NCBI RefSeq assembly: GCF_026130175.1
Contig: NZ_JAIGNI010000017.1
Coordinates: forward strand, 1-64,000
Origin: Lyngbya sp. CCAP 1446/10
GTDB taxonomy: Bacteria > Cyanobacteriota > Cyanobacteriia > Cyanobacteriales > Microcoleaceae
Direction of reading: 5' to 3'
Length of the DNA: 64,000 nt
Under the pieces are notes generated by a model. The model was not told where the DNA came from. It made no database searches and saw only the letters and a list, made by a program, of their open reading frames with translations. How positions within the stretch are numbered: position 1 is the stretch's first letter; every line of letters starts with the position of its first letter. A program made the position numbers and the translations under genes. Below are positions 8,937 to 23,050 of the stretch, piece by piece.

Positions 8937-8951
8937 AATCGGACTGACGCC

Positions 8952-9022
8952 AAGAAACCCGGTTTCTCCGAAAATATTGGCTTTGCTAACGATAAATCCC
9001 GCCAGCAACCGGGTTTGCTCAG
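8952..9022 (+). terminator. AGAAACCCGGTTTCT palindrome and partner, possible terminator
   Basis: A near-perfect 15-base palindrome (about 8953-8967) lies just after the prohibitin gene, with CAACCGGGTTTGCTCAG about 40 bases later. The same AAACC/CGGTTT words form the long hairpin at 48112-48176, so this is probably a dispersed repeat that may also act as a terminator. No gene is seen from 8937 to 9173. Confidence 0.4.
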
Positions 9023-9173
9023 AAAGCGTACATAAGTTTTATGAGAGTTTGCGGAGTATGCTACACTGCTGAAAGCCAAAAGATAACGACAGCTTAAAAC
9101 CTGTCGCTATCAAAGCAAAGTCCGCAATTCATATGCAGACAACACACTCATTCTAGAAAGTAAGGAAAAAATC

Positions 9174-9593
9174 ATGACCCGCGCGATTATGGAAACGAAC
9201 AAAGGCACAATCAATTTGGAATTGTTTGATGCAGATGCGCCTAACACAGTTAATAATTTTGTTGACTTGGCAGAAAAAGGTTTTTACGACGGATTAGCGT
9301 TTCACCGAGTCATTCCTAACTTTATGGTTCAAGGTGGCTGTCCAAAAGGTACTGGAACCGGCGGCCCCGGCTACAAAATCAAGTGTGAAATCAACTCCAA
9401 AAAACATATTGCAGGAACTTTATCGATGGCTCATGCAGGTAAAGATACGGGCGGCAGCCAATTCTTTATTTGCCATTCTCCCCAGTCGCATTTAGATGGA
9501 GTTCACACAACTTTTGGCCAAACAGATGATATGTCTGTCGTGAATGCAATCCGCCAAGGCGATAAGATTATTTCGCTCAAAATCGAGCATTAA
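9174..9593 (+). CDS. Cyclophilin-type peptidyl-prolyl cis-trans isomerase
   Basis: A 139-residue single-domain cyclophilin that speeds proline isomerisation during protein folding. It shows [13 protein letters not shown] (active-site Arg and Phe), the [10 protein letters not shown] segment and [10 protein letters not shown] near the C-terminus. There is no signal peptide, so it should be cytoplasmic. TAAGGA lies 8-9 bases before the ATG. The terminal stretch ([17 protein letters not shown]) is found again, degraded, at 10762-10812 beyond the next gene, a sign of an old duplication. Confidence 0.95.
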
Positions 9594-9613
9594 TCCTCAT
9601 TAATTACTTTCGT

Positions 9614-9643
9614 TTGTAATAAGGACTTTAGTCCTTATTACAA
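9614..9643 (+). terminator. Perfect-stem hairpin after the cyclophilin gene
   Basis: TTGTAATAAGGACT (9614-9627) pairs with AGTCCTTATTACAA (9630-9643) across TT. It belongs to the same GGACT palindrome family as 5682 and 17210 and sits 21 bases after the stop codon. It may end the cyclophilin transcript, although no T tract follows. Confidence 0.5.
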
Positions 9644-9840
9644 CAAATTAAATACTAAATATATATATCTAATAAGTTATACTTTGGGATTCAAGAGGAT
9701 TATGCTATCAATTGGCGATCGACCTTATTTGCTTGCATGACTTTTTTTGTAAATTTTTGCGATCGATATATTGCTCCTGAGATCAGTAATGATATAAAAT
9801 AAATATAGTTCAGATCGGCAATTAAAAAAGTGAAATTAGT

Positions 9841-10737
9841 ATGCTCAATAGAGGTTTGAGGAAAATAAAAAGAGAAGCTTCTCTGCTTCAATCTAGCTTA
9901 TCTTATAAGTGGAGACTTTTGCAACACATCAAAAAATTACCTGCACTGAATCCGACGAATCAGTCCATTGTCGAGGCTCTTAGGAAGGAAGGGGCTTTTA
10001 TTACTTCTCTACAAGCTTTGTCATTGCCAATGAATGAACAACTTTTGGATGCAGTGAAGGCGATATTACCTAATAATCCAAAATCTCCGGCTTTTGAAGA
10101 TCAATACGTTTATCATGTTAATTCAGCAGAAATTATCAAGAATTCAGAAATCTTTTTATGGGGTCTTCAAGAGCGGTTGTTTGACATTGCTGAAAATTAT
10201 CTTGGGGTTCCCGTTGCTTACCGGGGTTTGTTTTTTCAGAAAGATTTTGCGAACGAACAGCAGGTACATACAAGATTGTGGCATAAAGACCCTGAAGATC
10301 ATAGACTTCTCAAAATAGCTGTTTACTTGAATGATGTGAATCCTGAAAATGGCCCGTTTGAATATATTCCAAAGCATTTCAATTCTCAGTTAAGCCCTCT
10401 CAAACGAAAACTTTTATTTTCTGATGCAGAAGTAGCGCAACATTTAGACCAATCAAATTGGGTTTCATGTACAGGGCTAGCAGGTACTGTTGTTTTTTTC
10501 GACTCTCACCATGTTTTTCATCGCGGTAAGATGCCTATCAAGTCACACCGCGACGCAATATTTTTTAATTATCACTCCAGACAACCGATTAAAGTGTTTT
10601 CTGATCATTGGAAAGCTCCTTTTTCACCAGATGAGTTACTCGTGCTTTCAAAAACTCTTTCTCCACGCCAGAAAGAATCAGTTTTTTGGTGGGAAAATGG
10701 TGCGGAGTCATTCCAGCCAAAGTTGATGGCTAGGTGA
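9841..10737 (+). CDS. Phytanoyl-CoA dioxygenase (PhyH) family Fe(II)/2-oxoglutarate oxygenase
   Basis: A 298-residue protein whose C-terminal two thirds carry the PhyH-type jelly-roll marks: LWHKDPEDHRLLKIAVYL supplies the His-x-Asp pair, and SHHVFHRG the distal His, with an Arg nearby (SHRDAIFF) for 2-oxoglutarate. The basic N-terminal 35 residues are family-variable. The substrate is unknown; bacterial relatives often hydroxylate small molecules. No ribosome site is obvious before the ATG. The gene lies between the cyclophilin gene and a decayed copy of that gene's 3' end, so it seems to have arrived by insertion or duplication. Confidence 0.82.
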   Translation: MLNRGLRKIKREASLLQSSLSYKWRLLQHIKKLPALNPTNQSIVEALRKEGAFITSLQALSLPMNEQLLDAVKAILPNNPKSPAFEDQYVYHVNSAEIIKNSEIFLWGLQERLFDIAENYLGVPVAYRGLFFQKDFANEQQVHTRLWHKDPEDHRLLKIAVYLNDVNPENGPFEYIPKHFNSQLSPLKRKLLFSDAEVAQHLDQSNWVSCTGLAGTVVFFDSHHVFHRGKMPIKSHRDAIFFNYHSRQPIKVFSDHWKAPFSPDELLVLSKTLSPRQKESVFWWENGAESFQPKLMAR

Positions 10738-10761
10738 AACATTTAATCAAGGAGAGGGGAA

Positions 10762-10862
10762 GTGAATAGTATCCGCCAAACCGACAATATTATTTCATTA
10801 ATCGAGCATTGATTCTCAGTAATTGAGTTGCGTTTGTAGTAAGGATTAAAGTTCTTATTATA
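10762..10862 (+). pseudogene. Decayed copy of the cyclophilin 3' end and its hairpin
   Basis: GTG AAT ... CAT TGA at 10762-10812 encodes VNSIRQTDNIISLIEH, against [17 protein letters not shown] at the end of the intact cyclophilin; one codon is lost. The similarity continues past the stop (TCTCAGTAATTGAG..GCGTTTGTAGTAAGGA) into a mutated copy of the palindrome (10832-10862). The rest of the gene copy is gone. Confidence 0.85.
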
Positions 10863-10884
10863 AACTTAACTCGGTTAAATTGAA

Positions 10885-12030
10885 TCATTCATCTTCAAGG
10901 GAAATGTCTAACTGTTCAATCTCTAAATTTTCTTCCTCATCCTCATAATTAAATTCCAATCTGCTCTGCTTAATAATTTCGTTCAACATATTATTTAAAT
11001 ATCCTTTGGCAACAGCCTCTTCAAATCTTTCGATAATAATAGCAACATTAATTATTTCTTCTATACATTCCATGTAACGTGAAACTATTGCATTTATTGA
11101 ATACTGTTTTCGAGCTTGCGCCTCAATTTTAGATTTAATTTCAATATCAGAATCTGAAGATTTAACGACAAATGTTATCGGATACTTTTCAATTTTATCA
11201 ATGTCTAGGAAATATTTATTCATATCTACAGTTTCTGTCACCTGAAAAAACCGTCCCAAAGGCTTCATTACAAAATCAATGCCACCATCATTTGCATTTG
11301 TCCGGCCTGTTTTAAACAGTTTTAAATTTTCTTGCTGGAGCTGATCAACCTCATAACCCCAATAAATCGATCGGTCACTATAGTAGTATTTTAATATACT
11401 GTAGCTGACGATCTCGAAGATTCTAGCATCTACCGTTGGTGCGAGTATTTGTTTAATAAATTCTATTACTTGACCCTCTGTCAATGCTTGAGCATCTTTA
11501 CAAAGTTGAAGAAATTTTTCAAAGCTATCTCTCTTAGCTTCAACGTAGGCGTCAATAATTTGAATTACTGTTTCGGCTATATTATGTACGTTTTCCTGAA
11601 TTTTAACTTTTAATAAATTCTCGTTAAACCAATACCTGTTAGTTTTTGGATTTCTCAGAATTGGGATGAAGTCACAAGTAGGAAAATATCTTTTAAATTC
11701 TTCATTAAGTCTGTGGTTCAAAGCATGGTTCTGAAGCTTTTGTCCAAACGGTAATTCGCGCTGTCTCTTAAAAATATTTGTATAAACTGCACCTTCATAA
11801 TCTGAATACATCTCGCTTTGATGAAAATCTCTTGAAAAATAGTCTTCAACTAAAACATATATACCGTATAAATTGGCAAAACTCCCTCTTGATTTTGAGC
11901 CTTTATTTGCAGATTTAGTTTTGATATTCAAATATTGAATTAGCTCGCTTCCAGCAAATATTTGCTCGCCCGACGCACCAAAGTTTTCTTGTAAAACTTT
12001 TTTAATTGTTTTTGTAAATTCGTGTTCCAT
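10885..12030 (-). CDS. Probable type II restriction endonuclease
   Basis: A 381-residue protein encoded four bases after the DNA methyltransferase gene, in one operon. A nuclease-like core is suggested by E206 (IFEIVSY), NANDGGIDFVMKP (Asp252) and FFQVTET (263-266), which looks like a PD-(D/E)xK arrangement with a non-standard third position. The C-terminus is very acidic. I do not recognise a close family from memory; the identification as the partner endonuclease rests on gene order and the nuclease-like segment. If the methyltransferase is ATGCAT-specific, so should be this enzyme. Confidence 0.7.
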   Translation of the reverse strand: MEHEFTKTIKKVLQENFGASGEQIFAGSELIQYLNIKTKSANKGSKSRGSFANLYGIYVLVEDYFSRDFHQSEMYSDYEGAVYTNIFKRQRELPFGQKLQNHALNHRLNEEFKRYFPTCDFIPILRNPKTNRYWFNENLLKVKIQENVHNIAETVIQIIDAYVEAKRDSFEKFLQLCKDAQALTEGQVIEFIKQILAPTVDARIFEIVSYSILKYYYSDRSIYWGYEVDQLQQENLKLFKTGRTNANDGGIDFVMKPLGRFFQVTETVDMNKYFLDIDKIEKYPITFVVKSSDSDIEIKSKIEAQARKQYSINAIVSRYMECIEEIINVAIIIERFEEAVAKGYLNNMLNEIIKQSRLEFNYEDEEENLEIEQLDISLEDE

Positions 12031-12034
12031 TTTA

Positions 12035-12886
12035 TCAAAATTGTAAATTAAGTGTTAGTTGTTTTGGTGAACTTGCAAGTGAATTGACTTCGGAGCTTTG
12101 AGCCTGCTGATTGTCATCAGAAGTAATCTGTAATCTATTTAATCCTATTTCTACATATTTTTCTTGTAATTCTATTCCGACTGACTTTCTATTAAGCTGT
12201 TTGGCAACAAATGATGTAGTAAAAGTTCCAGAAAATATATCTAGTACAACGTCTCCCTCATTACTACTTGCTTTAATAATTCTTTCTAACAAAGATGTTG
12301 GTTTCTGGGTAGGATGATCTTCATATTGGGGCATACGATATCTGACTCTCGGAAACTCCCATACATTACCTGGAACTTTTTCAGAATTATATACTGATGG
12401 TGTAGACTTGCGGTAATCAATTAATTTTCTGACAGATCCAGTTTTTGCTTCTACCAGAATATCTGAGGAATTAAATGTATAATTTCGTTTGTCTTTGACA
12501 CAATATAAAATAGGTTCGTACAGAGAACCATAATATTTTTTTGCTTGGACACCAGAACTGTCATAATACCACACTATGCGAGAAAGAACTGTTAAACGAT
12601 CGCGCAAATATAAGTCAAAGTAAGGCATACATTGAGTGGATGCCATCAAATACAAGCTGCCGTTTTGCTTGAGCTTATCAATACATAAATTCAACCAAGT
12701 ATAACTCCATTCTAAATAAGCGCTTTCAGATTCCCACTTATCTTTAAAACCATTGAAGTCCTTGCCAATATTATAGGGAGGGTCGGCAAAAATTAAATCA
12801 ATTGAGTTGTCTTTAATTTCACTAGAAAGGACTTCTAATGCATCTCCCAATATGAGCTTGTGTCTGTCTACTTCAAAGATTTTCAT
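12035..12886 (-). CDS. Adenine-specific DNA methyltransferase, YhdJ-like (beta class)
   Basis: A 283-residue enzyme transferring a methyl group to adenine N6. Motif IV FADPPYNIG is at residues 33-41 and motif I LDIFSGTFTTSF near 222, the beta-class order. Long stretches (RIVWYYDSSGVQAKKYYGS, TGSVRKLIDYRK, KVPGNVWEFPRVRYRM, HPTQKP) match Escherichia coli YhdJ as I remember it; YhdJ methylates ATGCAT. It is the first gene of the pair with the endonuclease. The C-terminal tail beyond residue 260 is low in conserved character. Confidence 0.92.
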   Translation of the reverse strand: MKIFEVDRHKLILGDALEVLSSEIKDNSIDLIFADPPYNIGKDFNGFKDKWESESAYLEWSYTWLNLCIDKLKQNGSLYLMASTQCMPYFDLYLRDRLTVLSRIVWYYDSSGVQAKKYYGSLYEPILYCVKDKRNYTFNSSDILVEAKTGSVRKLIDYRKSTPSVYNSEKVPGNVWEFPRVRYRMPQYEDHPTQKPTSLLERIIKASSNEGDVVLDIFSGTFTTSFVAKQLNRKSVGIELQEKYVEIGLNRLQITSDDNQQAQSSEVNSLASSPKQLTLNLQF

Positions 12887-12951
12887 TTTGCCTAACCTTT
12901 TTCAATCAATACGCGCTCTTGTCGGATATAGTTGGTATTTGCCAGAAATAT

Positions 12952-14076
12952 TCAATACAATTCATACTTGAGCAAAGTACACGGAATTGAGCCATTGTAA
13001 ACTGGAATCCGCTTTGATGTCCTGAGTCCAACTTGTTTCCCCAATTCCTTATTTCCTGTCAAAATAAACGCATTCCAACCTTTAAAACGCTGCTTGAAAA
13101 TATCGCCTAACATTTTATAAAGTTCCCCTAATTCGCTAGCGTCTCCCAGTCGCTCTCCGTAGGGAGGATTGCATATCAGAATGCCGCTGTCTGATGGTGG
13201 TTCTAACTCGGATAACTCGGTACGAGCAAACTTGATTTTACCGGCAATACCTGCTTGCTGCGCGTTAGTGCGAGCTTGATCTAACATATCAGAATCGCGA
13301 TCGCACCCGGAAATCATTTCTGGAAGCTCTGACAATTCGCTGTTTTCCGCTTCGGCCCACAATTTATCCCACAAAGGCTCGTCAAAATCCCGCCACGTCA
13401 TAAATCCAAACTTTTCTCGAAACAATCCCGGTGCAATATTTAAGGCTTTTAAACTCGCTTCCAAAGGCAAAGTTCCCGAACCGCACATCGGGTCTAAAAA
13501 TGGTAAATCTGGCGTCCATTCTGCCATTTCTAAAAGGGCCGCAGCGAGGGTTTCTTTGAGCGGAGCCAGCCCCATTGCCGGTCGGTATCCCCGCCGGTGC
13601 AAACTGCCGCCGGAACTGTCTAAACTCAAAATAGCGCGATCGCGATGAATGTGAATATTAATCAGCAAATCGGGATTCTCGACATCAACACTCGAACGCT
13701 TGTTAAATTGGTGGCGCTGTTGGTCGGCGATCGCATTTTTGACCTGCAAAGCTGTAAAGTGAGTATGATTTAACTTGTCGTTCCCACCTGTACAGTTGAC
13801 TGCTAAGGTATTATCAGGATTTAGATATTCGTCCCAAGGAATTCTCTGGACTGCGCCGTAGAGCATATCTGAGTTATAACACTGAAATTCGGCGATCGGC
13901 ATTAACACTCGAAAAATTGTTCTTGACCAAAGATTGACGCGGTACAATAAAGCGCGATCGCCCGCAAAGTAAACTCCTGTAAAATCTGGCTTGACATCCT
14001 GCGCGCCTAAGCTTTCTAATTCTTGGGCGGCAATTGTTTCTAAACCGCGCGCAACTGTAGCAAAATATTGATTCAT
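12952..14076 (-). CDS. THUMP-domain class I rRNA/tRNA guanine methyltransferase (RlmL/TrmN family)
   Basis: A 374-residue RNA methyltransferase. The N-terminal part (about 1-155) contains a ferredoxin-like and THUMP RNA-binding region; the catalytic part has LDPMCGSGT (194-202) for S-adenosylmethionine, GCDRDSDML for the acidic ribose contact, and NPPYGERL as motif IV typical of guanine-N2 enzymes. Length and layout match the YpsC/RlmL-N group acting on 23S rRNA G2445 or a tRNA guanine; the exact target cannot be read. The gene is separate from the restriction-modification pair by about 65 bp. Confidence 0.9.
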   Translation of the reverse strand: MNQYFATVARGLETIAAQELESLGAQDVKPDFTGVYFAGDRALLYRVNLWSRTIFRVLMPIAEFQCYNSDMLYGAVQRIPWDEYLNPDNTLAVNCTGGNDKLNHTHFTALQVKNAIADQQRHQFNKRSSVDVENPDLLINIHIHRDRAILSLDSSGGSLHRRGYRPAMGLAPLKETLAAALLEMAEWTPDLPFLDPMCGSGTLPLEASLKALNIAPGLFREKFGFMTWRDFDEPLWDKLWAEAENSELSELPEMISGCDRDSDMLDQARTNAQQAGIAGKIKFARTELSELEPPSDSGILICNPPYGERLGDASELGELYKMLGDIFKQRFKGWNAFILTGNKELGKQVGLRTSKRIPVYNGSIPCTLLKYELY

Positions 14077-14086
14077 TGATGATTAC

Positions 14087-14150
14087 GAAGGAAGAAGGAA
14101 GAGGGAAGAAGGAAGAGGGAAAAAGGAAGAGGGAAGAGGGAAGAAACAGG
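14087..14150. repeat. Purine-strand low-complexity repeat (GGAAGAG units)
   Basis: More than 60 bases of almost pure purine (GAAGGAAGAAGGAAGAGGG...) lie upstream of the methyltransferase gene. The rest of 14151-14588 holds a cluster of HIP1-type GCGATCGC sites (about 14337-14390) and no gene that I can support. Confidence 0.7.
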
Positions 14151-14622
14151 TATGTGTGTATTCGTGACTTCTGGATCGCGAATAAAGGTTGTTGGGGATT
14201 GGGAATGGGTTTTTCTCGATCGCCCTTCATTTAGATAGTAGCTCGTTTTCATCCTAACTCTCACAAACAATACTCTACCTTAAGGTAGATGCCGAGAATC
14301 AAAGAACTGCTATATTGCAGGAAAGTTTATCAACAGGCGATCGCCCGCCTAGTCCTGTAGTTAAAAGGGCGATCGGGCGATCGCCACACCCGCTCAACCT
14401 CCAAAATCTAGCGGCAGAGCGGATTCACGCTTAATTCTCACCAAGGTTGGCAACTGCTGCGAATTATCCTGTCGGCCTGTTTATTGAACAAAATTCTTAA
14501 CTATTTGCACAGGTTATTAACTTCATGTTACACTTTTAGTCAAAGTTGAGAATTCAAGCCCTAACGTCACAGTCAGGGAAAATTTCAGCTAAATTGGTGT
14601 ACTACAACAATTAGAGGCCATT

Positions 14623-14775
14623 ATGTCAAAGCAAATCAACGCATCGGCTCTCAAACTGTCCCGCGCTAGCAAAATCCAAGTAGAAGTCAAGGAAATTGCC
14701 AAGCACGCCACAGCTAAAAACATCTCTTCTACCCTCAATGTTGATGCCGATGGTAGCGATGTTACCAACGAGTAA
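14623..14775 (+). CDS. 50-residue peptide, candidate precursor of a modified peptide
   Basis: ATG 14623-14625 is preceded by TTAGAGG with six bases between. The product has a basic, helical first part (MSKQINASALKLSRASKIQV then EVKEIAKHATAKN) and a short acidic tail rich in Asp, Asn, Ser and Thr (DADGSDVTNE). That split resembles a leader plus a core peptide. It precedes an Fe(II) oxygenase and a sucrase/ferredoxin-like gene on the same strand, with a strong hairpin in between as is common after precursor genes. No Cys and no signal peptide. Function is inferred only from size, position and composition. Confidence 0.65.
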   Translation: MSKQINASALKLSRASKIQVEVKEIAKHATAKNISSTLNVDADGSDVTNE

Positions 14776-14854
14776 TTGCAGGTTTTTCCGTTAGACTTCG
14801 CCTCCCCAAACAAGAAGTAATAGATTTTATTTTTTGATGTCGGGAAGTCTGGAG

Positions 14855-14890
14855 TAATTGAGGACAAGCGCAAAGTGTTGTCCTCAATTA
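14855..14890 (+). terminator. 13-bp perfect hairpin between peptide gene and oxygenase gene
   Basis: TAATTGAGGACAA (14855-14867) pairs perfectly with TTGTCCTCAATTA (14878-14890), loop GCGCAAAGTG. There is no strong T tract, so it is more likely a partial terminator or an RNA-stabilising element that lets the peptide be made in excess over the enzymes. Confidence 0.6.
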
Positions 14891-14941
14891 TTAAATTGCT
14901 AAAATCTTATTGATAATTTTTATCGTTTATTTTTAAAATTT

Positions 14942-16090
14942 ATGCGATCGCTCGCCAATCTCCTCAAACCATACAATCTGGAAGATTTTTTAAATAACAA
15001 CTGGACAAACAAAGCAGTTGCGATTAAAAGTGAAGGAAAAAAAGACTTTGCACACCTATTTTCCTGGGAAAAACTCAACCACCTGCTCAACTTTTACCAA
15101 TTAAAATATCCCGACATTCGCTTAGCAGTAGAAGGAAAAGTTCTCGACGAAAGCGAAAATGAAAATCTCATCAAATTGTGCCAATCTGGAGCAACGTTAA
15201 TTATCAATCAAGTCCACAAACTCATACCAGAAATAGCTGAATTTGCAGCAGAATTTAAAGCAGACTTGGGTTATGGAAACCAAGTAAATGCCTACTGTTC
15301 TTGGCCGGAAAAACAGGGTTTTTCCTCCCATTACGACACCCACGAAGTTTTTATCTTGCAGACAGACGGAATCAAACAGTGGTACGTCTTTGCCGACACA
15401 ATTAAATACCCGCTTACAGACCAAAAATCCTCCACTTTTCCGCCGCCAGAAACCCCACCCTATTTAACCTGCACATTGCACCCTGGCGACGTGCTTTACA
15501 TACCGCGCGGACATTGGCATTATGCAATTGCTTCCGACGAACCGTCGCTGCATTTAACATTAGGAATTCACTGCAAAACAGGAATTGATTTTTTAGAATG
15601 GTTGGTGGGCGAATTGCGACAACAATCAGAGTGGCGGCAAAGTTTACCGCTGCGAATAAATCAAGATTCAATCGATACAAGTGTAAATAATTTAATTGCT
15701 GAATTTCACGGCTACACAAACAGTAAAAATCTGGGAGAAGAGTACAGCAGCTACCTCGATAGTTTAGCCAAACCTGTGGCGAAATATTCTCTCCCTTATC
15801 AAGCAGGGTTCAACATTTTTCCCTACGGCATTCAAACTAAATATAGAATTCCCAAATTTCAGCGGGTGAGAATTCACGAATTGCCTGACGGGTGCGGATA
15901 CAAAATCGTTGTTGGAGGCAAAGAAGTATCTCTGAAAGGAGTAACGGATAAATTTACAGACAATCTATTCAGTACAGAAGTTTTTACAGGAGAGGATGTG
16001 ATGGATTGGTTGCCGGATTGTGATTGGGAAATAGATGTAATGCCGCTTTTGTCGAGGCTAGTTGTTGAAGGAATTATTTTTGTTAGTTAA
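14942..16090 (+). CDS. JmjC/cupin-fold Fe(II)/2-oxoglutarate oxygenase
   Basis: A 382-residue protein of the cupin_4/JmjC group that includes bacterial and eukaryotic ribosomal-protein hydroxylases. The iron site is H130-x-D132 in FSSHYDTHEVF with distal His193 in YIPRGHWHYA; LQTDGIKQWYVF and SLHLTLGIH are typical strands. The part after about residue 215 resembles the dimerisation and winged-helix region of these enzymes. Such enzymes hydroxylate protein or peptide side chains. The small peptide encoded upstream is a natural candidate substrate. AT-rich DNA without a clear ribosome site precedes the ATG. Confidence 0.85.
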   Translation: MRSLANLLKPYNLEDFLNNNWTNKAVAIKSEGKKDFAHLFSWEKLNHLLNFYQLKYPDIRLAVEGKVLDESENENLIKLCQSGATLIINQVHKLIPEIAEFAAEFKADLGYGNQVNAYCSWPEKQGFSSHYDTHEVFILQTDGIKQWYVFADTIKYPLTDQKSSTFPPPETPPYLTCTLHPGDVLYIPRGHWHYAIASDEPSLHLTLGIHCKTGIDFLEWLVGELRQQSEWRQSLPLRINQDSIDTSVNNLIAEFHGYTNSKNLGEEYSSYLDSLAKPVAKYSLPYQAGFNIFPYGIQTKYRIPKFQRVRIHELPDGCGYKIVVGGKEVSLKGVTDKFTDNLFSTEVFTGEDVMDWLPDCDWEIDVMPLLSRLVVEGIIFVS

Positions 16091-16163
16091 AGCTACATAA
16101 GAGTAATAGCTGCGATAAATTGGTTTGTAACATAGTAATTTATGACACACAATGAGGTATAAC

Positions 16164-17186
16164 ATGACGAATAGTTTTTTGTGCGCTGATGCTTCTAAAT
16201 GCGTTCAAGAGGATATTATTGGTAGCGGTACTAATTACCAAACCTATGTATTAATTGAATGCTGTTTGCCTTGGGAATCAGAAGCTTTTAATTCCCAACA
16301 AGTTCCCCAGAATCTCAGGGATTTGGTGGAGGAAGTAGAACATTCAAAGCAAAAAATCAGATTTTTGTTGATAAATAGTGAATCAACTAAATGTGCAGAC
16401 CGTCGCAAAATTTTGATTTACGAAAACAAAAGTCAAGATATTTTTGGTGGTTACGAAAAGCACGAATTTAATGCGAATAATATTGAAGAAGTGGCGGAAA
16501 TAGTCAAAAGCTATTTAGCTGGAGAAGTCCCGGATTGCGAAGTTGAAAATAACCCAATTAGAGATATTTTGGTTTGCACTCACGGGAGTCACGATAGATG
16601 TTGCGCCAGATACGGCAATCCTTTTTATGCCCAAGCAAAAGCTGTGGTTTCCGAGTTAGAATTGAGTGATGTTCGTGTTTGGAAATCCAGTCACTTTGGC
16701 GGACACCGCATGGCACCGACTGCGATTGATTTGCCTGACGGTAGATATTACGGAAATCTCGATCGCACTTCGTTCAAATCTATTCTGACGCGCACTGGCG
16801 ATATTGAATGTTTGAATAAAGTTTATCGGGGTTGGGGAATTTTGCCAAACGCAATTCAGGTTTTGGAACGAGAATTTATCATGCGCTACGGTTGGGATTG
16901 GTTCAACTACAAAGTTGCGGGGCGCATTGTTGAAAAATATCCAGAAAATGATGGTTTTGTTGCTGAATTAACTTTTGAAAAAGTCGATGGGACGTACACC
17001 TATCGGGCTAATTTAGTCAAAAATGACAGTAAAACAGTTCGGCTGAAAGGTTCCTGCGGTGCGAAACAAGAATCAGAGTTTGTCAAGTATTTGGTAAAAA
17101 ATTATTACTTTTACTCGAAGACTGAAGAGTCAAAATTTGTCATCTATCCGGGAAGTCCGCAGCCGATATTGGTAGAGACAATGTGA
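16164..17186 (+). CDS. Sucrase/ferredoxin-like family protein (thioredoxin-fold Fe-S)
   Basis: A 340-residue member of the Suc_Fer-like family. The segment ILVCTHGSHDRCCARYGNPF carries the clustered Cys typical of the 2Fe-2S thioredoxin-like ferredoxin fold, followed by VWKSSHFGGHRMAPTAIDLP, the family's second signature. GAGG (16154-16157) lies six bases before ATG 16164, so I prefer this start to the in-frame ATG at 16152. It follows the JmjC-type gene by 73 bp on the same strand and could supply electrons or redox control to that oxygenase; this link is inferred. Confidence 0.85.
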   Translation: MTNSFLCADASKCVQEDIIGSGTNYQTYVLIECCLPWESEAFNSQQVPQNLRDLVEEVEHSKQKIRFLLINSESTKCADRRKILIYENKSQDIFGGYEKHEFNANNIEEVAEIVKSYLAGEVPDCEVENNPIRDILVCTHGSHDRCCARYGNPFYAQAKAVVSELELSDVRVWKSSHFGGHRMAPTAIDLPDGRYYGNLDRTSFKSILTRTGDIECLNKVYRGWGILPNAIQVLEREFIMRYGWDWFNYKVAGRIVEKYPENDGFVAELTFEKVDGTYTYRANLVKNDSKTVRLKGSCGAKQESEFVKYLVKNYYFYSKTEESKFVIYPGSPQPILVETM

Positions 17187-17209
17187 GATGAAACAATCAC
17201 AATCAAATA

Positions 17210-17272
17210 GGTTCGTAGTGAGGACTTTAGTCCTTGCATTTTGGATGCGGACTAAAGTCCTCACTACGAACC
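17210..17272. repeat. Perfect 24-bp inverted repeat (GGTTCGTAGTGAGGAC family)
   Basis: The left arm (17210-17233, starting GGTTCGTAGTGAGGACTTTA) is the exact reverse complement of the right arm (17249-17272), with a 15-base loop. It lies between convergent genes and could terminate both. It is the cleanest copy of this dispersed family in the window. Confidence 0.9.
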
Positions 17273-17287
17273 TTATCATGACACTAA

Positions 17288-17722
17288 TTAAATCTCTAAC
17301 TGCATGAATACGTGCGGAATTCCCAGGTAATCAAAAGGACTTTCTTGTGCGGAAAATCCGAGTTTTTGGTAAAATTGAACAGCGTTAATGCGAGACATCA
17401 GTCTCAGTGTTTTGAAATTATTTTCCTTAGCTTGTGCGATCAATTTTTCCATCAGTTTAGTGCCAATTCCCTGATTTTGGAATTCAGGAAGCACAGCAAC
17501 ATAAGAGATGCTTCCTAATTCTGGGGATAATTCTCGGAGTCGGCCTGATGCGATAATTTTGCGATCGCCCGTTGCTATGATATGACAAGCACCATTTTCG
17601 TGATCGTCCTTTTCGCTACCCCTTTCCATACCCAGGGGCGATCGCAAAACCAACCACCGCTGGTAAAACATCTCTTCTAATTCTTGTGCGTTTTTAACCG
17701 GACGTATATCTATATTTGGCAT
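17288..17722 (-). CDS. GNAT family N-acetyltransferase
   Basis: A 144-residue single GNAT domain. The acetyl-CoA loop is QNQGIGTKLM (about residues 83-92), after the beta-4 strand ISYVAVLPEF; LMSRINAVQFYQKLGF is the usual second half. The substrate is unknown; the MPNIDIRPVKNAQEL opening resembles small stand-alone acetyltransferases. Palindromic repeats of the same family lie on both sides of it (17210-17272 and 17744-17802). Confidence 0.9.
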   Translation of the reverse strand: MPNIDIRPVKNAQELEEMFYQRWLVLRSPLGMERGSEKDDHENGACHIIATGDRKIIASGRLRELSPELGSISYVAVLPEFQNQGIGTKLMEKLIAQAKENNFKTLRLMSRINAVQFYQKLGFSAQESPFDYLGIPHVFMQLEI

Positions 17723-17743
17723 TTTTTTTGATAAATTACTGTA

Positions 17744-17802
17744 GGTTCGTAGTGAGGACTTTAGTCCTTCTTATGTAAAGGACTAAAATTCTCACTACAA
17801 AC
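17744..17802. repeat. Imperfect copy of the GGTTCGTAGTGAGGAC palindrome
   Basis: Opens GGTTCGTAGTGAGGACTTTA and closes with a mutated complement (GGACTAAAATTCTCACTACA). With the copy at 17210-17272 it brackets the acetyltransferase gene. Confidence 0.8.
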
Positions 17803-17838
17803 ATCCGCTAACTGGCGGACTCATTGAATAACCACCTA

Positions 17839-19185
17839 TCACAAACTGTCAGTAACACTCGTGAAATTAAAAGCTTTCACGCGCACTCCGGGCACGACAT
17901 TACCGCCGTAACGTTTCACCTCGGTAACTGCATCGACATCGCGCAACATATCAGGTAAAACTTGATTGAAACGCATATTTTTAATCGGGTAAACAATCTT
18001 ACCATTTTCAATCCAGAAAGTACCGTCGCGAGTCATGCCGGTTACTTCCGATGTTTTCGGATTCACGTAATTTACATACCAAGCTCGACTGACAAAAATT
18101 CCCCGCTCGGTTTGAGCGATTAAATCTGCTAAACTTTGATCGGAACCTGTCATCACTATCGGGTAATAAGCACCTTTCGTTTCTTTCCCTTTTTGCGCGG
18201 CCCAATAGCGGGAATAAGACAAACTTTGAGGGATGCCATTTTTGATGATTTCCAAATAGTTATTGCTGAATCCGTCGCCGAAAAAATTACCAGATCGCAA
18301 CAAAGGATGACTTGGATCGCGCTGTACCTGCACTAACGGGCTGAAAAGTTGTTCTCCCGCGCGGTTTCCAGCGGGTTTTCCAGACTCATCGGCGATCGAC
18401 ATAAACGATCGCCCTTCATCCGCCGCCCGCGCATCCATACCCCAAATTATCCACGGTAGCAAGTCCGAAAACGCAGCGCCATCAAAGATTACAGGATAAA
18501 CAGCGGGAGTAATTTCGCGGGGGTTGCGGGAGGCCTTCGCGCGATCGACAACTTGTGCTGCTAATTCGGCCACTTGTAGTTGACTAATACTCCAAGCTGT
18601 GGATTCAGTCCAGCTAGAACCGTTGTCAATGCGGGCTGTAAAGCCGAAATTCGCCTCTGTAGATTGGTTGCAGGCGCGGAGTCCGGTTGACGAGGCGATC
18701 GCGTACAGCGAAGCCTCAGCGCTCAATGTACCGGAAGCTTCCGCGCCTTCGCCAGATGCGATCGCACAAGCCTGTCGCACCATTTCTGCGCGGGCTAGAG
18801 GCGATACAGCGGCCGTTGCTTCATCAAACGCGGGCCTCGGTAAATCGTAGGTTTGAGGGGGCAGCAAGGGCATCCATTCGGGGTCTGCGGGGGCAATTCG
18901 GGCGAGTTCTTCCGATCGCTTGATGGTTTGGGCGATCGCATCTTCATCAAATTCAGTAACAGCAGCAGAAGCACTTTTGTTGCCAAAATAGCTAGTAATG
19001 TTGAGGCTAAATACAGTCTTGCTAATATTTTGGCTGATTTGATTTTCTGAGAAACGGGAAAGAGATTCTTCGCCAGTAGAGAGACTGACAAATACTGCTT
19101 CTGCTGAGGATTGTTTGACTACATTTTCTAGTAAAGATAAGGCTTGGTCTTCACTTAAAATTGCGGGAGATGTTGTAACGGTCAT
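17839..19185 (-). CDS. tldE: TldE/PmbA subunit of the TldD/TldE metalloprotease
   Basis: A 448-residue TldD/PmbA-family protein without the zinc HExxxH motif, as expected for the non-catalytic TldE half. Features include the glycine-rich DGAAFSDLLPWIIWG region and the C-terminal GMTRDGTFWIENGKIVYPIKNMRF barrel strand typical of the family. TldD/TldE degrades unfolded peptides and, in some bacteria, trims leaders from modified peptides. The partner tldD is upstream on the same strand, but 660 bp away because a small gene pair lies between them. Confidence 0.9.
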   Translation of the reverse strand: MTVTTSPAILSEDQALSLLENVVKQSSAEAVFVSLSTGEESLSRFSENQISQNISKTVFSLNITSYFGNKSASAAVTEFDEDAIAQTIKRSEELARIAPADPEWMPLLPPQTYDLPRPAFDEATAAVSPLARAEMVRQACAIASGEGAEASGTLSAEASLYAIASSTGLRACNQSTEANFGFTARIDNGSSWTESTAWSISQLQVAELAAQVVDRAKASRNPREITPAVYPVIFDGAAFSDLLPWIIWGMDARAADEGRSFMSIADESGKPAGNRAGEQLFSPLVQVQRDPSHPLLRSGNFFGDGFSNNYLEIIKNGIPQSLSYSRYWAAQKGKETKGAYYPIVMTGSDQSLADLIAQTERGIFVSRAWYVNYVNPKTSEVTGMTRDGTFWIENGKIVYPIKNMRFNQVLPDMLRDVDAVTEVKRYGGNVVPGVRVKAFNFTSVTDSL

Positions 19186-19246
19186 AAGCTATAATGCTAG
19201 CATGATTTGTTGGTATTTGAAAACATATTGAGCCGCAATATTACGG

Positions 19247-19495
19247 TTAACTTGCCTGTACTAAAGAGCGAACTGTTAACACTTCATCAGCTCGTAAAGG
19301 TTCCACATCTGAACGGGAGACAGCCACGACTAAAATCGATTCTCCTAACGCATTAAATATTTCTAACACGCAGCCATCTTCGCCTTGGATTGGGTGAGGT
19401 ACGCGATCGACTAGCATAGCTACATCGCCTTTTTTTAGTTGATATAGAGGCATATCCCGGCACAATGCTACACGCTGATAAAGTTCAAGTTTCAC
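19247..19495 (-). CDS. DUF4926 family small protein
   Basis: An 82-residue protein. The string MPLYQLKKGDVAMLVDRVPHP and EDGCVLEIFNALGES match the DUF4926 family as I know it. I chose GTG at 19493-19495 because AAGGAG lies about seven bases before it and the family N-terminus (KLELYQRVAL) starts there. Its start overlaps the end of the DUF6883 frame by 11 bases, so translation was probably coupled. DUF6883/DUF4926 pairs are common in cyanobacteria and look like toxin-antitoxin or similar two-gene units; this is not proven. Confidence 0.75.
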   Translation of the reverse strand: MKLELYQRVALCRDMPLYQLKKGDVAMLVDRVPHPIQGEDGCVLEIFNALGESILVVAVSRSDVEPLRADEVLTVRSLVQAS

Positions 19496-19826
19496 GTCGA
19501 GGCTCCTTTTTAGGTTTGAGAGTAATAAAATGAAAACTTCCGTCAATTTGCCACTGCAACCAAATTGTAACAACTGCTAAATTACGTCCATTAACTGCTG
19601 GTAACTCACCTTCAGCGCGAAAGAACTTTCCGAATTCATTAGCACCATCTTCTACTGCCTCAGCAGATGCGATTAAAGACTGAATTGCTGCTAGCAAAGC
19701 TTCTGGGTTATATTGACTAAAACCACCCTGAGCCAGAAATTTTTATTTGTCATCTTGCGCTTTTAAAATAAGTAGATAGCGCGTTAATTTGGCTTCTGGT
19801 ATGATAGCATCCGCTGGAATTTTCAC
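19485..19826 (-). pseudogene. DUF6883 gene interrupted by a nonsense codon
   Basis: Reading from GTG 19824-19826 gives KIPADAIIPEAKLTRYLLI and then, after AQDDK, an in-frame TAA (19743-19745, codon 28); the frame then continues KFLAQGGFSQYNPEALLA to a normal end at 19485. Relatives usually carry a Ser or similar residue at the stop position (DDKSKFL-like), so a single base change seems to have broken the gene. No frameshift is needed. It precedes, and overlaps, the DUF4926 gene. Either a true pseudogene or a sequencing error. Confidence 0.8.
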
Positions 19827-19847
19827 GTTAACAACCTACGCTTTAAA

Positions 19848-21335
19848 TTAAGCCCTTCCCCCAATTTGAATATCCCTTACCCGCACCGGCACACAAGCGT
19901 GAGTCATTTGAGCAACCTGTATCGGTTCACCTTTGCCGCACATATTCGTACCACATTGTACCCGTTCGGAAGCAGGGCCAATCGCATCTACTTGATTCCA
20001 GAAATCAGTGCTCATTGAATGATAGGTTACATCCTTCAACATCCCGACAACTTTACCTTTTTCCACCTTCCAAAACGCATTACCGCCGAATTGAAAATTG
20101 CGCCGCTGTTGGTCAATTGAAAAACTACCAATACCATCAATTAAAATCCCATCTTCCGTATCAGCAATCATCTCATCTAAAGTAGCAGTATGACTGCCAC
20201 CATCCGGGCCTGGTTCCAATCCCAAATTAGGAATTCTCACCATCGGTACACTCGACCAACTGTCAGCGCAGGCAGAACCGTTGCTGCTACCGCGTCCGAG
20301 GCGATAAGCTGTTTCTCTGTCAGTGAGATAATCAACTAAAATTCCATCCTTGACAACGTACCAATCCTGTGATTTTACGCCCTCATCGTCGTAACCCATT
20401 GTACCGCGGCCGTGGGGTTGAGTGCGATCGCACTTGAAGTTAACCCAAGGTGCAGCGTATTGCAGCTTATTTAACTTATCGGTAGTAGCAAAACTCGTGC
20501 CAGCAAAATTAGATTCGTAGCCGTAAACCCGGTCTAATTCTGTTGGGTGTCCGACGGATTCATGGATTGTCAGAAACAAATTTGTCGGCTTGAGAATCAG
20601 AGATTTGCAAATACCAGCCGGGACTTTTGGCGCAGCGACTTTCTCAATCGCTTCGGCCGCAACTCGTGCGACTTGACTCAACAAATCATCTGGATTAATG
20701 TGTTCGTAACCGATGTTTAGGGGCGGGCGTTCGTAACTGCGACTTTGGGCATCGCCGCCCGCAATTGCCGTACAGCCAAAACCCGGATAGCTGCGGTAGA
20801 TTGTTTGTTCGATTAGCGAGCCTTCTGTGGACGCAAAAACCTTGTCTTCGCGATTGAATGTCAAAAAAGAATAAGCTTTTTTGATGCCTTGTGATTCGTG
20901 TGCTAGCAGGCGCTCGTTGATGGTTAATAAAAGTTCGGCTTTGTCAGCAACGGGTACAGAAAACGGGTCAATTGCGATCGCACTAATGTAAGTATCGACA
21001 TATTTTTCGACTGGTACTAAGCGCACCGGTTCCTTTTGAGTCAAGCGGCTGCCTTTAGCGATTTCCACAGCCAAAGCCACGATTCTGGCAACCTCTGCGG
21101 TGGTTTTGCTGTGACTAGCGGCAAAGCCCCAAGCACCGTCTAGCAGCACTCGCACGCCAAAACCGGAACTTACATTATCGGAGATATTGCTTAAAGAGCG
21201 ATCGCGCGCATACAAACCTTGCCTCCGGTAACTGCAAAAACGCACATCACCGTATTCGCACCCACTTTTCCGAATTAACTCTACAGCTAAATTTGCCAAT
21301 TCGTTAGCAGAGACTTTTGCAGTTAACAGTACCAT
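19848..21335 (-). CDS. tldD: TldD catalytic subunit of the TldD/TldE metalloprotease
   Basis: A 495-residue TldD-family zinc protease. The zinc motif is in LTIHESVGHPTELDR (H-E-x-x-x-H), with further ligands expected near the C-terminal CGTNMCGKG region. GTMGYDDEGVKSQDWYVV and DGIGSFSIDQQRRNFQFGG are characteristic. It is the first gene of the tldD / DUF6883 / DUF4926 / tldE group. In other bacteria the TldD/TldE complex digests small unfolded peptides and matures some peptide antibiotics, which is worth noting given the candidate peptide gene at 14623. Confidence 0.93.
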   Translation of the reverse strand: MVLLTAKVSANELANLAVELIRKSGCEYGDVRFCSYRRQGLYARDRSLSNISDNVSSGFGVRVLLDGAWGFAASHSKTTAEVARIVALAVEIAKGSRLTQKEPVRLVPVEKYVDTYISAIAIDPFSVPVADKAELLLTINERLLAHESQGIKKAYSFLTFNREDKVFASTEGSLIEQTIYRSYPGFGCTAIAGGDAQSRSYERPPLNIGYEHINPDDLLSQVARVAAEAIEKVAAPKVPAGICKSLILKPTNLFLTIHESVGHPTELDRVYGYESNFAGTSFATTDKLNKLQYAAPWVNFKCDRTQPHGRGTMGYDDEGVKSQDWYVVKDGILVDYLTDRETAYRLGRGSSNGSACADSWSSVPMVRIPNLGLEPGPDGGSHTATLDEMIADTEDGILIDGIGSFSIDQQRRNFQFGGNAFWKVEKGKVVGMLKDVTYHSMSTDFWNQVDAIGPASERVQCGTNMCGKGEPIQVAQMTHACVPVRVRDIQIGGRA

Positions 21336-21395
21336 AGTTATTCGTCGTTTGTCGTTGGTTATGAATGATTATAGCGCTGTTTAAGGATTTAAACG

Positions 21396-21495
21396 AACCG
21401 CGAAGACGCGAAGAGCGCGAAGGAAGACAAGAGAGAGAAGTTTTTCTGCTCTTCTTCTCTCTCTCTTCCTTCGTGTCCTTAGCGCCTTCGCGGTT
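21396..21495. repeat. 100-bp inverted-repeat element (AACCGCGAAGACGC family), copy 1
   Basis: Begins AACCGCGAAGACGCG and ends CCTTCGCGGTT, with long purine-rich and pyrimidine-rich arms (GAAGGAAGACAAGAGAGAG against CTCTCTCTTCCTTC). It lies just past the end of the aminotransferase gene and could form a long hairpin. Confidence 0.85.
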
Positions 21496-21504
21496 TATTA
21501 AATC

Positions 21505-22809
21505 TTACTCCAATTCCTGCAAAACCGCTGTTAAAATTTCCAAAATGCGATCGATATGTTCCTGTTCAATAATCAACGGAGGCGACAAAGCAATAATATC
21601 ACCAGTAGTCCGAACCAGCAACCCTTTTTCAAAGCACTGCAAGAAACAATCAAAAGCCCGTTTCCCCGGCTTCCCAGGGATAGATTCCAACTCAATCCCC
21701 GCCACAAGTCCGAGATTCCGCACATCAATTACATGGCGCACGCCCTTCAAAGAATGAACCGCATTTTCCCAATAATCAGCCAACTTATTAGCCCGTTCAA
21801 ACAGCCTTTCTTCCTCATAAATATCCAGCGTCGCCAAAGCAGCCGCACAAGCCAGCGGATGCCCAGAATAAGTATAACCGTGAAAAAGCTCGATCGCATT
21901 TTCGGGAGCATTCATAAAAGCATCATAAATTCCCTCCTTCACAAACACCGCCCCCATCGGCACAGTACCGTTAGTTATCCCCTTCGCCACCGTCACAATA
22001 TCGGGAACCACCCCAAAATATTCAGTAGCAAAACTCGAACCCAGCCTGCCAAATCCAGTAATTACCTCATCAAAAATCAGCAGAATCCCGTACTTGTCAC
22101 AAATCTCCCGCAGCCGCTGCAAATAACCTTGGGGCGGAATCAAAACCCCCGTAGAACCAGCAACAGGTTCGACAATTACCGCCGCAATATTAGACGCATC
22201 GTGCAAAGCCACAATCCGTTCCAATTCATCAGCAAAATGCGCGCCCCATTTCGGTTGTTTGCGACTGAAAGCATTGTGCTCTAAATTATGAGTGTGAGGT
22301 AAATGATCAACTCCTGTCAGCAAACTGCCAAAAAATTTACGATTAGGGCCAATACCACCGACAGAAATTCCCCCAAAACCAACGCCGTGATAACCGCGTT
22401 CCCTACCGATTAATCTTTGACGAGTTCCTTCACCTTTCACCCGGTGATAAGCAATCGCAATTTTCAAAGCAGTTTCCACAGACTCCGAACCCGAATTAGT
22501 GAAGAAAACGCGATCGAAATTGCCCGGAATCATCTTCACCAAACGTTCCGCTAATTCAAAAGCGCCGGGGTGTCCCATCTGAAAAGGTGGGGCATAATCT
22601 AGGGTCGATACTTGCTTATGAATTGCCTCGATAATTTTCGGGCGACAGTGGCCTGCATTCACGCACCAAAGCCCCGCAATCCCATCTAAAATGGATCGGT
22701 TATCATCGGTTGTAAAGTGCATATCTTTTGCCGAAACCAAGATGCGCGGATTTGCCTTAAACTGTCGGTTAGCCGTGAAAGGCATCCAGTAAGCGTCCAT
22801 ATTTGTCAT
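21505..22809 (-). CDS. Class III omega-amino acid:pyruvate aminotransferase
   Basis: A 434-residue PLP enzyme. DEVITGFGRLG holds the Asp that contacts the cofactor ring and VAKGITNGTVPMGAV the Schiff-base Lys; FFTNSGSESVETALKIA is the phosphate-binding segment. The YWMPFTANRQFKANPRIL opening is typical of beta-alanine/omega-amino acid--pyruvate aminotransferases. It should pass amino groups from an omega-amino acid to pyruvate; the donor is not clear from sequence. Copies of one long inverted repeat lie on both sides (21396 and 22915). Confidence 0.9.
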   Translation of the reverse strand: MTNMDAYWMPFTANRQFKANPRILVSAKDMHFTTDDNRSILDGIAGLWCVNAGHCRPKIIEAIHKQVSTLDYAPPFQMGHPGAFELAERLVKMIPGNFDRVFFTNSGSESVETALKIAIAYHRVKGEGTRQRLIGRERGYHGVGFGGISVGGIGPNRKFFGSLLTGVDHLPHTHNLEHNAFSRKQPKWGAHFADELERIVALHDASNIAAVIVEPVAGSTGVLIPPQGYLQRLREICDKYGILLIFDEVITGFGRLGSSFATEYFGVVPDIVTVAKGITNGTVPMGAVFVKEGIYDAFMNAPENAIELFHGYTYSGHPLACAAALATLDIYEEERLFERANKLADYWENAVHSLKGVRHVIDVRNLGLVAGIELESIPGKPGKRAFDCFLQCFEKGLLVRTTGDIIALSPPLIIEQEHIDRILEILTAVLQELE

Positions 22810-22914
22810 GTTTTTTATCCTTTTATATTCATCTTTCCGTTTTCAGACTATAACTTGTTACCGATTGCCGATCGACCGACACTTATTATAATTTTACAAA
22901 TATCTCTTTTAAAC

Positions 22915-23050
22915 AAACCGCGAAGACGCAAAGAGCGCGAAGGAAGATAAGAAAGAGCTTTTTCTCATTTTTAAATCAAGTCTTTGCCTAAAAAGATTTA
23001 CCTATCTTCCTCTTTCTCTTCCTTCTCTTCCTTCGTGCCTTCGCGGTTCG
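22915..23050. repeat. Inverted-repeat element (AACCGCGAAGACGC family), copy 2
   Basis: Begins AAACCGCGAAGACGCAAAG and ends CTTCGTGCCTTCGCGGTT, with a longer, diverged middle than copy 1. It sits upstream of the aminotransferase gene, so the gene is bracketed by the family. Confidence 0.85.

Follow-up and report, generated by a model that had tools for sequence, protein, structure and literature searches.

A candidate RiPP cassette of cyanobacteria pairs an Asp-rich peptide with a JmjC oxygenase bearing an RRE-like domain

Introduction

JmjC hydroxylases are already known from the biosynthesis of ribosomally synthesized and post-translationally modified peptides (RiPPs), as are fusions of JmjC proteins with RiPP recognition elements (RREs). 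In the accessible text of PMC12707348, the JmjC enzyme BipG hydroxylates ornithine in a RiPP precursor. As far as that source and the accessible part of PMC12257519 go, the biphenomycin-type pathways (BipG/BpmG/PbsQ) share a JmjC or cupin-like 2-oxoglutarate enzyme that hydroxylates a precursor side chain, acting on ornithine after a multinuclear nonheme iron-dependent oxidase (MNIO) and an arginase, alongside genes for radical SAM enzymes and TldD-type proteases. The available sections of PMC12710340 define RREs by an order of three strands and three helices and describe RREs fused to PF08007 JmjC domains in fish and algae; relatives from bacteria are said to occur in contexts resembling those of RiPPs. 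Here, we analyzed a 64,000-nucleotide stretch of Lyngbya sp. CCAP 1446/10 (contig NZ_JAIGNI010000017.1, positions 1 to 64,000; hereafter, the window), in which a gene for a 50-residue peptide precedes genes for a JmjC oxygenase and a Suc/Fer-like protein. We consider it likely that this locus is a small RiPP cassette in which an RRE-bearing JmjC enzyme hydroxylates the Asp-rich core of a precursor peptide, with Suc/Fer and GNAT proteins as partners.

The oxygenase shares the fold of the ROX oxygenases NO66, MINA53, and YcfD from end to end, C-terminal winged helix included. The usual targets of ROX enzymes are His or Arg residues in ribosomal proteins, as their PDB titles also indicate; here, a dedicated small peptide gene lies upstream. 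In contrast to the biphenomycin-type systems, the substrate here would be Asp-rich, and MNIO, arginase, radical SAM, and TldD-type protease genes do not accompany the cassette; no MNIO, arginase, or B12 radical SAM gene was found among the 8 scanned open reading frames (ORFs) of positions 9000-23000, a region that also holds unscanned ORFs. The fusions in PMC12710340 share a PF08007 JmjC with an RRE-like beta3-alpha3 domain; its accessible part gives examples from fish and algae and contains no precursor family, Suc/Fer gene, or cyanobacterial cassette. The Suc/Fer-like protein belongs to the same Pfam family as the Apd1/Aim32 [2Fe-2S] proteins and has their invariant Cys and His pairs, to judge from the accessible part of PMC11126956; the protein here is bacterial, lies in peptide-JmjC or TonB/binding-protein neighborhoods, and is a putative cluster binder. 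We found no description of the cassette, or of a RiPP class with such precursors, in the open-licence PubMed Central literature, in line with a preliminary description of the window that knew of no system with this exact gene set. The class A precursor family defined below is thus apparently undescribed.

Results

The preliminary description had placed the peptide, oxygenase, and Suc/Fer genes in this order; we confirmed all three on the + strand (ORFs of 50, 382, and 344 amino acids [aa]), together with the good ribosome site and the Ser/Thr/Asp/Asn-rich tail attributed to the peptide. That description had not mentioned the GNAT gene, an RRE-like domain at the C-terminus of the oxygenase, or the repeated DxDG cores of relatives. 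The features of the cassette are as follows.

14613..14617, + strand: ribosome-binding site AGAGG of the precursor gene (sequence reading)
14623..14775, + strand: precursor peptide gene, 50 aa (genus conservation, purifying selection, profile matches)
14668..14697, + strand: codons of the leader motif SKIQVEVKEI (residues 16-25), beta-strand-like
14737..14772, + strand: codons of the putative core NVDADGSDVTNE (residues 39-50), one DxDG unit, with a predicted core start
14942..16090, + strand: JmjC_2 (ROX-type) 2-oxoglutarate oxygenase, 382 aa
15866..16066, + strand: codons of the C-terminal RRE-like winged-helix domain (residues 309-375; AlphaFold2 secondary structure order)
16152..17186, + strand: Suc/Fer-like protein, 344-aa ORF with a likely start at 16164
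17288..17722, - strand: GNAT acetyltransferase, convergent with Suc/Fer; a conserved neighbor and probable accessory

The JmjC ORF matched Pfam JmjC_2 (PF08007, E 1.8e-24) and the Suc/Fer ORF matched Suc_Fer-like (PF06999, E 1.2e-29), and NCBIfam assigned no family to the peptide, the JmjC protein, or the Suc/Fer protein. The ATG at 16164 is the likelier Suc/Fer start, rather than 16152, since GAGG at 16154-16157 precedes it and homologue N-termini agree.

The 50-codon gene is under purifying selection and is not a chance ORF. It is present in 14/29 genomes of the genus, which are exactly those with a close JmjC orthologue (81-100% identity); a JmjC gene occurs in 15/29 and a Suc/Fer gene in 16/29. 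The genus copies comprise 14 distinct DNA sequences, and across the 78 pairs formed by 13 of them (L014 left out) the mean nonsynonymous and synonymous rates (dN and dS) were 0.066 and 0.364, with a median dN/dS of 0.19. Variable sites numbered 12, 11, and 32 at codon positions 1, 2, and 3. A GAG(G/A) ahead of the start codon was retained in the genus alignment, which covered 13/14 sequences (L007, where the script did not locate the JmjC start, was left out).

At wider ranks, JmjC relatives were found in 33/61 genomes of the family (E <= 1e-15) and 96/388 genomes of the order (E <= 1e-30). We fetched 20 further loci from the family, 40 from the order, and 80 from a scan of named genomes, the latter being the best 80 of 581 confirmed stretches; deduplication by JmjC sequence left 104 distinct loci with 11,288 small ORFs in all. 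A profile built from the 14 genus peptides alone had 47 matches among these ORFs at E <= 0.01, 12 inside the genus and 35 outside, and all 47 lay on the JmjC strand and ended <= 1.6 kb upstream of JmjC. The conservation of the peptide in other cyanobacteria, which the preliminary description had raised as a point to check, was therefore borne out by related precursors upstream of JmjC. Microcoleus, Tychonema, Okeania, Trichodesmium, Moorena, Symploca, and Scytonema were among the matches listed for the JmjC protein, as was Tychonema sp. LEGE 07203, whose JmjC is 93% identical to that of the window. We refer to the 49 loci with a profile match at E <= 0.05 as class A; five divergent loci (L047, L098, L108, L117, and L168) were put in class A by eye, with their Suc/Fer known beforehand, and are kept apart from the 49.

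The hallmark of a RiPP precursor is a conserved leader joined to a core that is multiplied and variable. The class A genes have this build, as conserved short genes beside a modifying enzyme. The leader motif is nearly constant ([R/S]SKIQ[V/I]E[V/I]K[D/E]I), with alternating hydrophobic and polar residues like those of a beta-strand. The C-terminal part varies from VDADGSDVTNE in the window peptide to NTDADGGDLNTDADGGDLTT in Symploca and NFDSDGGDRNFDSDGGDRHFDSDGGDRHH in Okeania. DxDG occurs in 43/49 class A precursors and at least twice in 20/49, by a pattern count that allows overlaps and in which L072 is a single overlapping run. Judged from the sequences, Asp is the one residue common to class A cores; Cys follows the leader in 4/49 precursors and Tyr in 7/49.

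The oxygenase has the JmjC_2 domain and HxD...H iron site of a ROX-type enzyme. Residues H130, D132, H204, and K145 were invariant in 14/14 aligned relatives, and, by analogy to ROX enzymes, the first three are presumably the Fe ligands. By sequence, the nearest solved structures were NO66 (E 2.5e-32), MINA53, and YxbC. An AlphaFold2 model from 14 sequences (predicted local distance difference test [pLDDT] 82.8, predicted template modeling score [pTM] 0.69) aligned with NO66 over residues 1-382 (Z 28.1, root mean square deviation 5.7 over 371 residues) and, also at full length, with MINA53 (Z 27.3) and YcfD (Z ~20); B. subtilis YxbC matched model residues 1-277 only. The C-terminal winged helix is present, as the NO66, MINA53, and YcfD alignments extend to residue 382. 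In the model, residues 309-375 run strand-strand-strand-helix-helix-helix (E309-313, E319-324, E327-332, H336-344, H350-356, and H362-375, with a short E347-349 between), which is the strict RRE order of three strands and three helices given in the accessible text of PMC12710340.

Several Okeania genomes carry, between JmjC and Suc/Fer, tandem copies of the JmjC C-terminal domain only (~residues 290-381), some of which contain stops. These copies may be stand-alone RREs or recombination debris.

L069:8672-8830 and 8847-9128: extra RRE-like domain copies, Okeania
L071:6349-6621 and 6649-6807: extra RRE-like domain copies, Okeania
L070:6628-6774: extra RRE-like domain copy, Okeania

It is a good guess that the C-terminal domain of the JmjC protein would bind the leader, given the modeled strand and helix order, the RRE-JmjC fusions in the accessible part of PMC12710340, and the lone domain copies of Okeania.

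With the ribosomal oxygenases NO66, MINA53, and YcfD as its best structural relatives, the JmjC protein might instead target a ribosomal or housekeeping protein, the upstream ORF being an unrelated attenuator or upstream ORF (uORF). A hairpin does lie after the small ORF in the window.

14853..14892, + strand: hairpin between the precursor and JmjC genes, lacking conservation across the genus

This hairpin is as stable as the preliminary description had stated (-21.2 kcal/mol, z -5.9; 0/200 shuffles equally good). By eye, it was intact in ~5 of the aligned genus sequences and altered or absent in the others, and for this reason we rejected it as a conserved part of the cassette. The conserved feature is the protein sequence of the ORF, not its position or the hairpin. 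Furthermore, the cores are repeated, dissimilar precursors stand before the same enzyme, and JmjC is patchy, missing from 14/29 genus genomes at E <= 1e-5. We consider a housekeeping target very improbable.

His and Arg cannot be the general target in these precursors, because 19/49 have neither in the last 22 residues, whereas Asp can be. The best inference from the sequences is thus that the JmjC enzyme hydroxylates core Asp. A reaction other than plain Asp hydroxylation, such as oxidation of Asn, Ser, or Gly or formation of a cross-link, seems unlikely to us, although Asn is also frequent in the cores and a 2-oxoglutarate enzyme making a RiPP Cys-Tyr cross-link is reported in the accessible part of PMC12636437. 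The scarcity of Cys and Tyr after the leader excludes a general Cys-Tyr link for class A, and the core residue that the precursors share is Asp.

Suc/Fer and GNAT genes track class A peptides. Five of the 104 loci end too near a contig edge and were left out of these counts, in which many loci are close relatives and not independent events. Suc/Fer lay <= 5 kb from JmjC at 43/47 profile-defined class A loci, at 5/5 by-eye class A loci (not independent), and at 3/47 other loci; these last three all have <= 425 bases upstream of JmjC, so that a precursor would be invisible there. GNAT lay <= 5 kb away at 41/51 loci with Suc/Fer versus 2/48 without. In the Suc/Fer protein, C142, C150, C151, H181, and H185 were invariant in 8/8 aligned relatives. 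Its invariant Cys pair and His pair are spaced C-x8-C and H-x3-H, as in Apd1, and the window protein, a probable [2Fe-2S] protein, has both the PF06999 domain and the two Cys and two His of the Apd1/Aim32 family. The AlphaFold2 model of this protein had a low pLDDT of 67.4.

In a 71-row tree of Suc/Fer, the JmjC-linked and unlinked labels required 8 changes, and nine lone rows of family f33 shared a supported group with Scytonemataceae rows that are linked to JmjC. At Iningainema (L144), the peptide-JmjC-Suc/Fer-GNAT set lies between ROK and ABC genes, and at L205 such ROK and ABC genes flank a lone Suc/Fer. These observations fit loss of the peptide and JmjC there, in a tree whose root is not fixed.

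TldD/TldE do not track class A peptides. The preliminary description had pointed to these genes as possible leader-trimming neighbors, and they are indeed present nearby.

17839-19185, - strand: TldE (Pfam scan)
19848-21335, - strand: TldD (Pfam scan)

Among loci L047, L048, and L065-L204, TldD homologues were found in 6 and TldE homologues in 9, all within the genus, in flanks of mostly 4-7 kb that more distant copies would escape. The locus of genus genome G008 retains TldD/TldE without the peptide or JmjC. We therefore rejected TldD/TldE as leader proteases of the system. No protease gene recurs beside class A loci, and neither a dedicated leader protease nor an exporter was identified for the cassette, with no exporter seen in the window.

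The fifteenth JmjC gene of the genus (genome G019, 35% identity) has two 46-aa ORFs in front of it, which are similar to each other but unlike the window peptide.

L047:3674-3814 and 3857-3997: twin 46-aa ORFs of G019, type PKFTK..W.SGE, ahead of JmjC and Suc/Fer

Three Streptomyces loci (L192, L193, and L202; JmjC 42-45% identity) all have a conserved 46-47-aa ORF directly upstream, ending in NLEVDQKDV. Outside class A, 23/51 loci have an upstream ORF that shows a comparable motif and a tail rich in D/N/Y, under a loose rule (motif plus D/N/Y content) that also gave 8/51 on the opposite strand and 2/51 downstream. By eye, many of these sister-group ORFs begin like a signal peptide, and their tails include (DQDY)n and (SN)n. 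This large sister group with secreted precursors and without Suc/Fer was likewise new relative to the preliminary description. In a FastTree phylogeny of 82 thinned JmjC sequences, class A did not form one clade and the Streptomyces rows lay among cyanobacterial ones, from which we conclude that the JmjC family is older than any single precursor type. Thus, the pair of ribosomal precursor and JmjC oxygenase proposed at the outset, found in the same 14/29 genus genomes, recurs in other families, in G019, and in Streptomyces.

Two further groups of ORFs were observed upstream of JmjC relatives. At L187, L188, L197, L199, L200, and L115, secreted-type ORFs before JmjC consist largely of (SN)n after a signal-peptide-like start and may be Asn/Ser-rich substrates for this enzyme family; such Asn-rich tails would suit a reaction at Asn. 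At L080, L094, and L101, the ORFs begin MIISDLxYLEV and contain VDVD-type runs, apparently a third precursor type.

The precursors also bear on whether the product leaves the cell. The class A precursors have no signal peptide, and no transporter or protease is conserved beside them; the modified peptide could accordingly stay intracellular, as a cofactor-like or metal-buffering peptide or as a regulator of JmjC/Suc/Fer. The signal-peptide-like N-termini of the sister group (by eye), an ABC exporter-like gene directly before JmjC at L084, and core units repeated head to tail, as is typical of released multi-core products, argue otherwise, and we give this alternative a minor share of the probability.

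A special case of the proposed RiPP cassette is that its product is a ribosomal metallophore, in which hydroxylated DxD Asp residues would bind Fe(III), Suc/Fer would reduce the complex, and uptake would proceed through TonB. At L104, the precursor, JmjC, a TonB receptor, Peripla_BP_2, MFS, and Suc/Fer lie on one strand, and at L117 a TonB receptor and Peripla_BP_2 are followed by the precursor, JmjC, Suc/Fer, and GNAT, with MFS further on. However, these are the only two JmjC loci with an uptake link, both belong to GTDB family f12, and the L104 Suc/Fer is divergent (196 bits; long branch in the tree). Peripla_BP_2 also lies beside Suc/Fer at 6/18 fetched non-JmjC loci (L213, L214, L215, L220, L221, and L222), 4 of which have a TonB receptor. 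Cyanochelin B, a cyanobacterial siderophore, contains beta-OH-Asp-Ser-beta-OH-Asp according to the accessible part of PMC12628792, a spacing as in FDSDGGD cores; siderophores of this type thus share the cyanobacterial origin and possibly beta-OH-Asp at DxD spacing, but they are made by a nonribosomal peptide synthetase-polyketide synthase, whereas the peptide here is ribosomal.

The region before JmjC also contains a candidate iron-responsive box.

14911..14925, no strand assigned: Fur/Zur-like palindrome TGATAATTTTTATCG, 2 mismatches from the 7-1-7 consensus

This 7-1-7 consensus was taken as that of Fur/Zur for scoring. A Fur-like palindrome lies ~20 bases before JmjC with <= 2 mismatches in 14/53 class loci, compared to 0.05% of Markov controls, and with <= 3 mismatches in 21/53, compared to 2.3%. 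Conversely, 32/53 class loci, including L104 and L117, have no box within 3 mismatches, 10/11 lone Suc/Fer genes have none, and a box within 3 mismatches was found at 2/4 siderophore-type operon starts. The four best Fur-like boxes of the organism's own genome do not precede recognized iron-uptake genes, and two of them lie near ALAD-like and multicopper-oxidase genes. A first Fur-site scan over 700-1500 nt gave, for most loci outside the genus, no site that beat shuffles. The palindrome is thus no more than a hint of Fur regulation of the cassette. With no exporter in the window as well, we regard the metallophore reading as doubtful; that the family comprises widespread ribosomal iron chelators, in which the RRE-JmjC enzyme would write beta-hydroxyaspartate into DxDGGD repeats and Suc/Fer would reduce Fe(III), is similarly doubtful. 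L102, where an ABC ATPase precedes a secreted-type precursor, was dropped as an iron-related locus, as Pfam gives only ABC_tran and TOBE_2.

Two neighbors of the cassette were also noted. A 63-base inverted-repeat element (window 17210-17272) lies directly 3' of Suc/Fer and is a dispersed hairpin repeat with ~48 genomic places (96 matches, both strands). A PhyH-like dioxygenase gene (window 9841-10737) lies 4 kb upstream; gene calls at the fetched JmjC loci included no homologue, and we therefore see no sign of a link.

Discussion

We propose a precursor role for the 50-aa peptide, whose leader would precede an Asp-rich core. Through its C-terminal RRE-like winged-helix domain, the JmjC enzyme would grip the SKIQVEVKEI leader and, with Fe(II), oxygen, and 2-oxoglutarate, would hydroxylate side chains of the core, most likely the Asp residues of DxDG. 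Suc/Fer could then perform a second redox step or act on metal held by the product, and acetylation of the product or protection of the host is the probable role of the GNAT protein. That other precursor types, namely the G019 twins, the secreted D/N/Y-rich ORFs, and the Streptomyces ORFs, precede the same enzyme family also favors a RiPP function for the peptide-JmjC pair.

Several observations weigh against this proposal. No precursor was found by the criteria used at 28/51 JmjC loci outside class A, and 6/49 class A precursors have no DxDG. The RRE assignment is a matter of secondary structure order in a model of pLDDT 82.8 built from 14 sequences, and this domain also corresponds to the winged helix present in ROX enzymes with ribosomal-protein substrates. 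Suc/Fer occurs in 167/388 order genomes, including 70 genomes of family f33, 63 of which have no JmjC match at E <= 1e-30, and the G008 Suc/Fer (71% identity) stands alone among the same neighbors, without peptide or JmjC. Accordingly, of the three-gene association suggested in the preliminary description, the peptide-JmjC pair holds and Suc/Fer accompanies JmjC at most class A loci, but Suc/Fer often stands alone, without the peptide. For Suc/Fer considered by itself, this is the refuting outcome that the preliminary description had named, whereas the peptide-JmjC pair is unaffected by it; a role of Suc/Fer as an enzyme dedicated to RiPPs could not be upheld.

In summary, the peptide-JmjC pair apparently represents a widespread, undescribed family of modified peptides across many cyanobacteria and three Streptomyces. 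The cassette lends itself to testing a RiPP type in which a single RRE-bearing JmjC protein may be the main modifying enzyme. Leader binding, if it occurs as we propose, would connect the winged helix found in ROX enzymes, human NO66 and MINA53 among them, with the recognition of leader peptides. For Suc/Fer proteins, the cassette supplies a first cellular setting. If the chelator reading is true, a siderophore-like molecule would be built without a nonribosomal synthetase, and if its iron role is true, it would be a siderophore encoded in a gene and open to design through codon changes.

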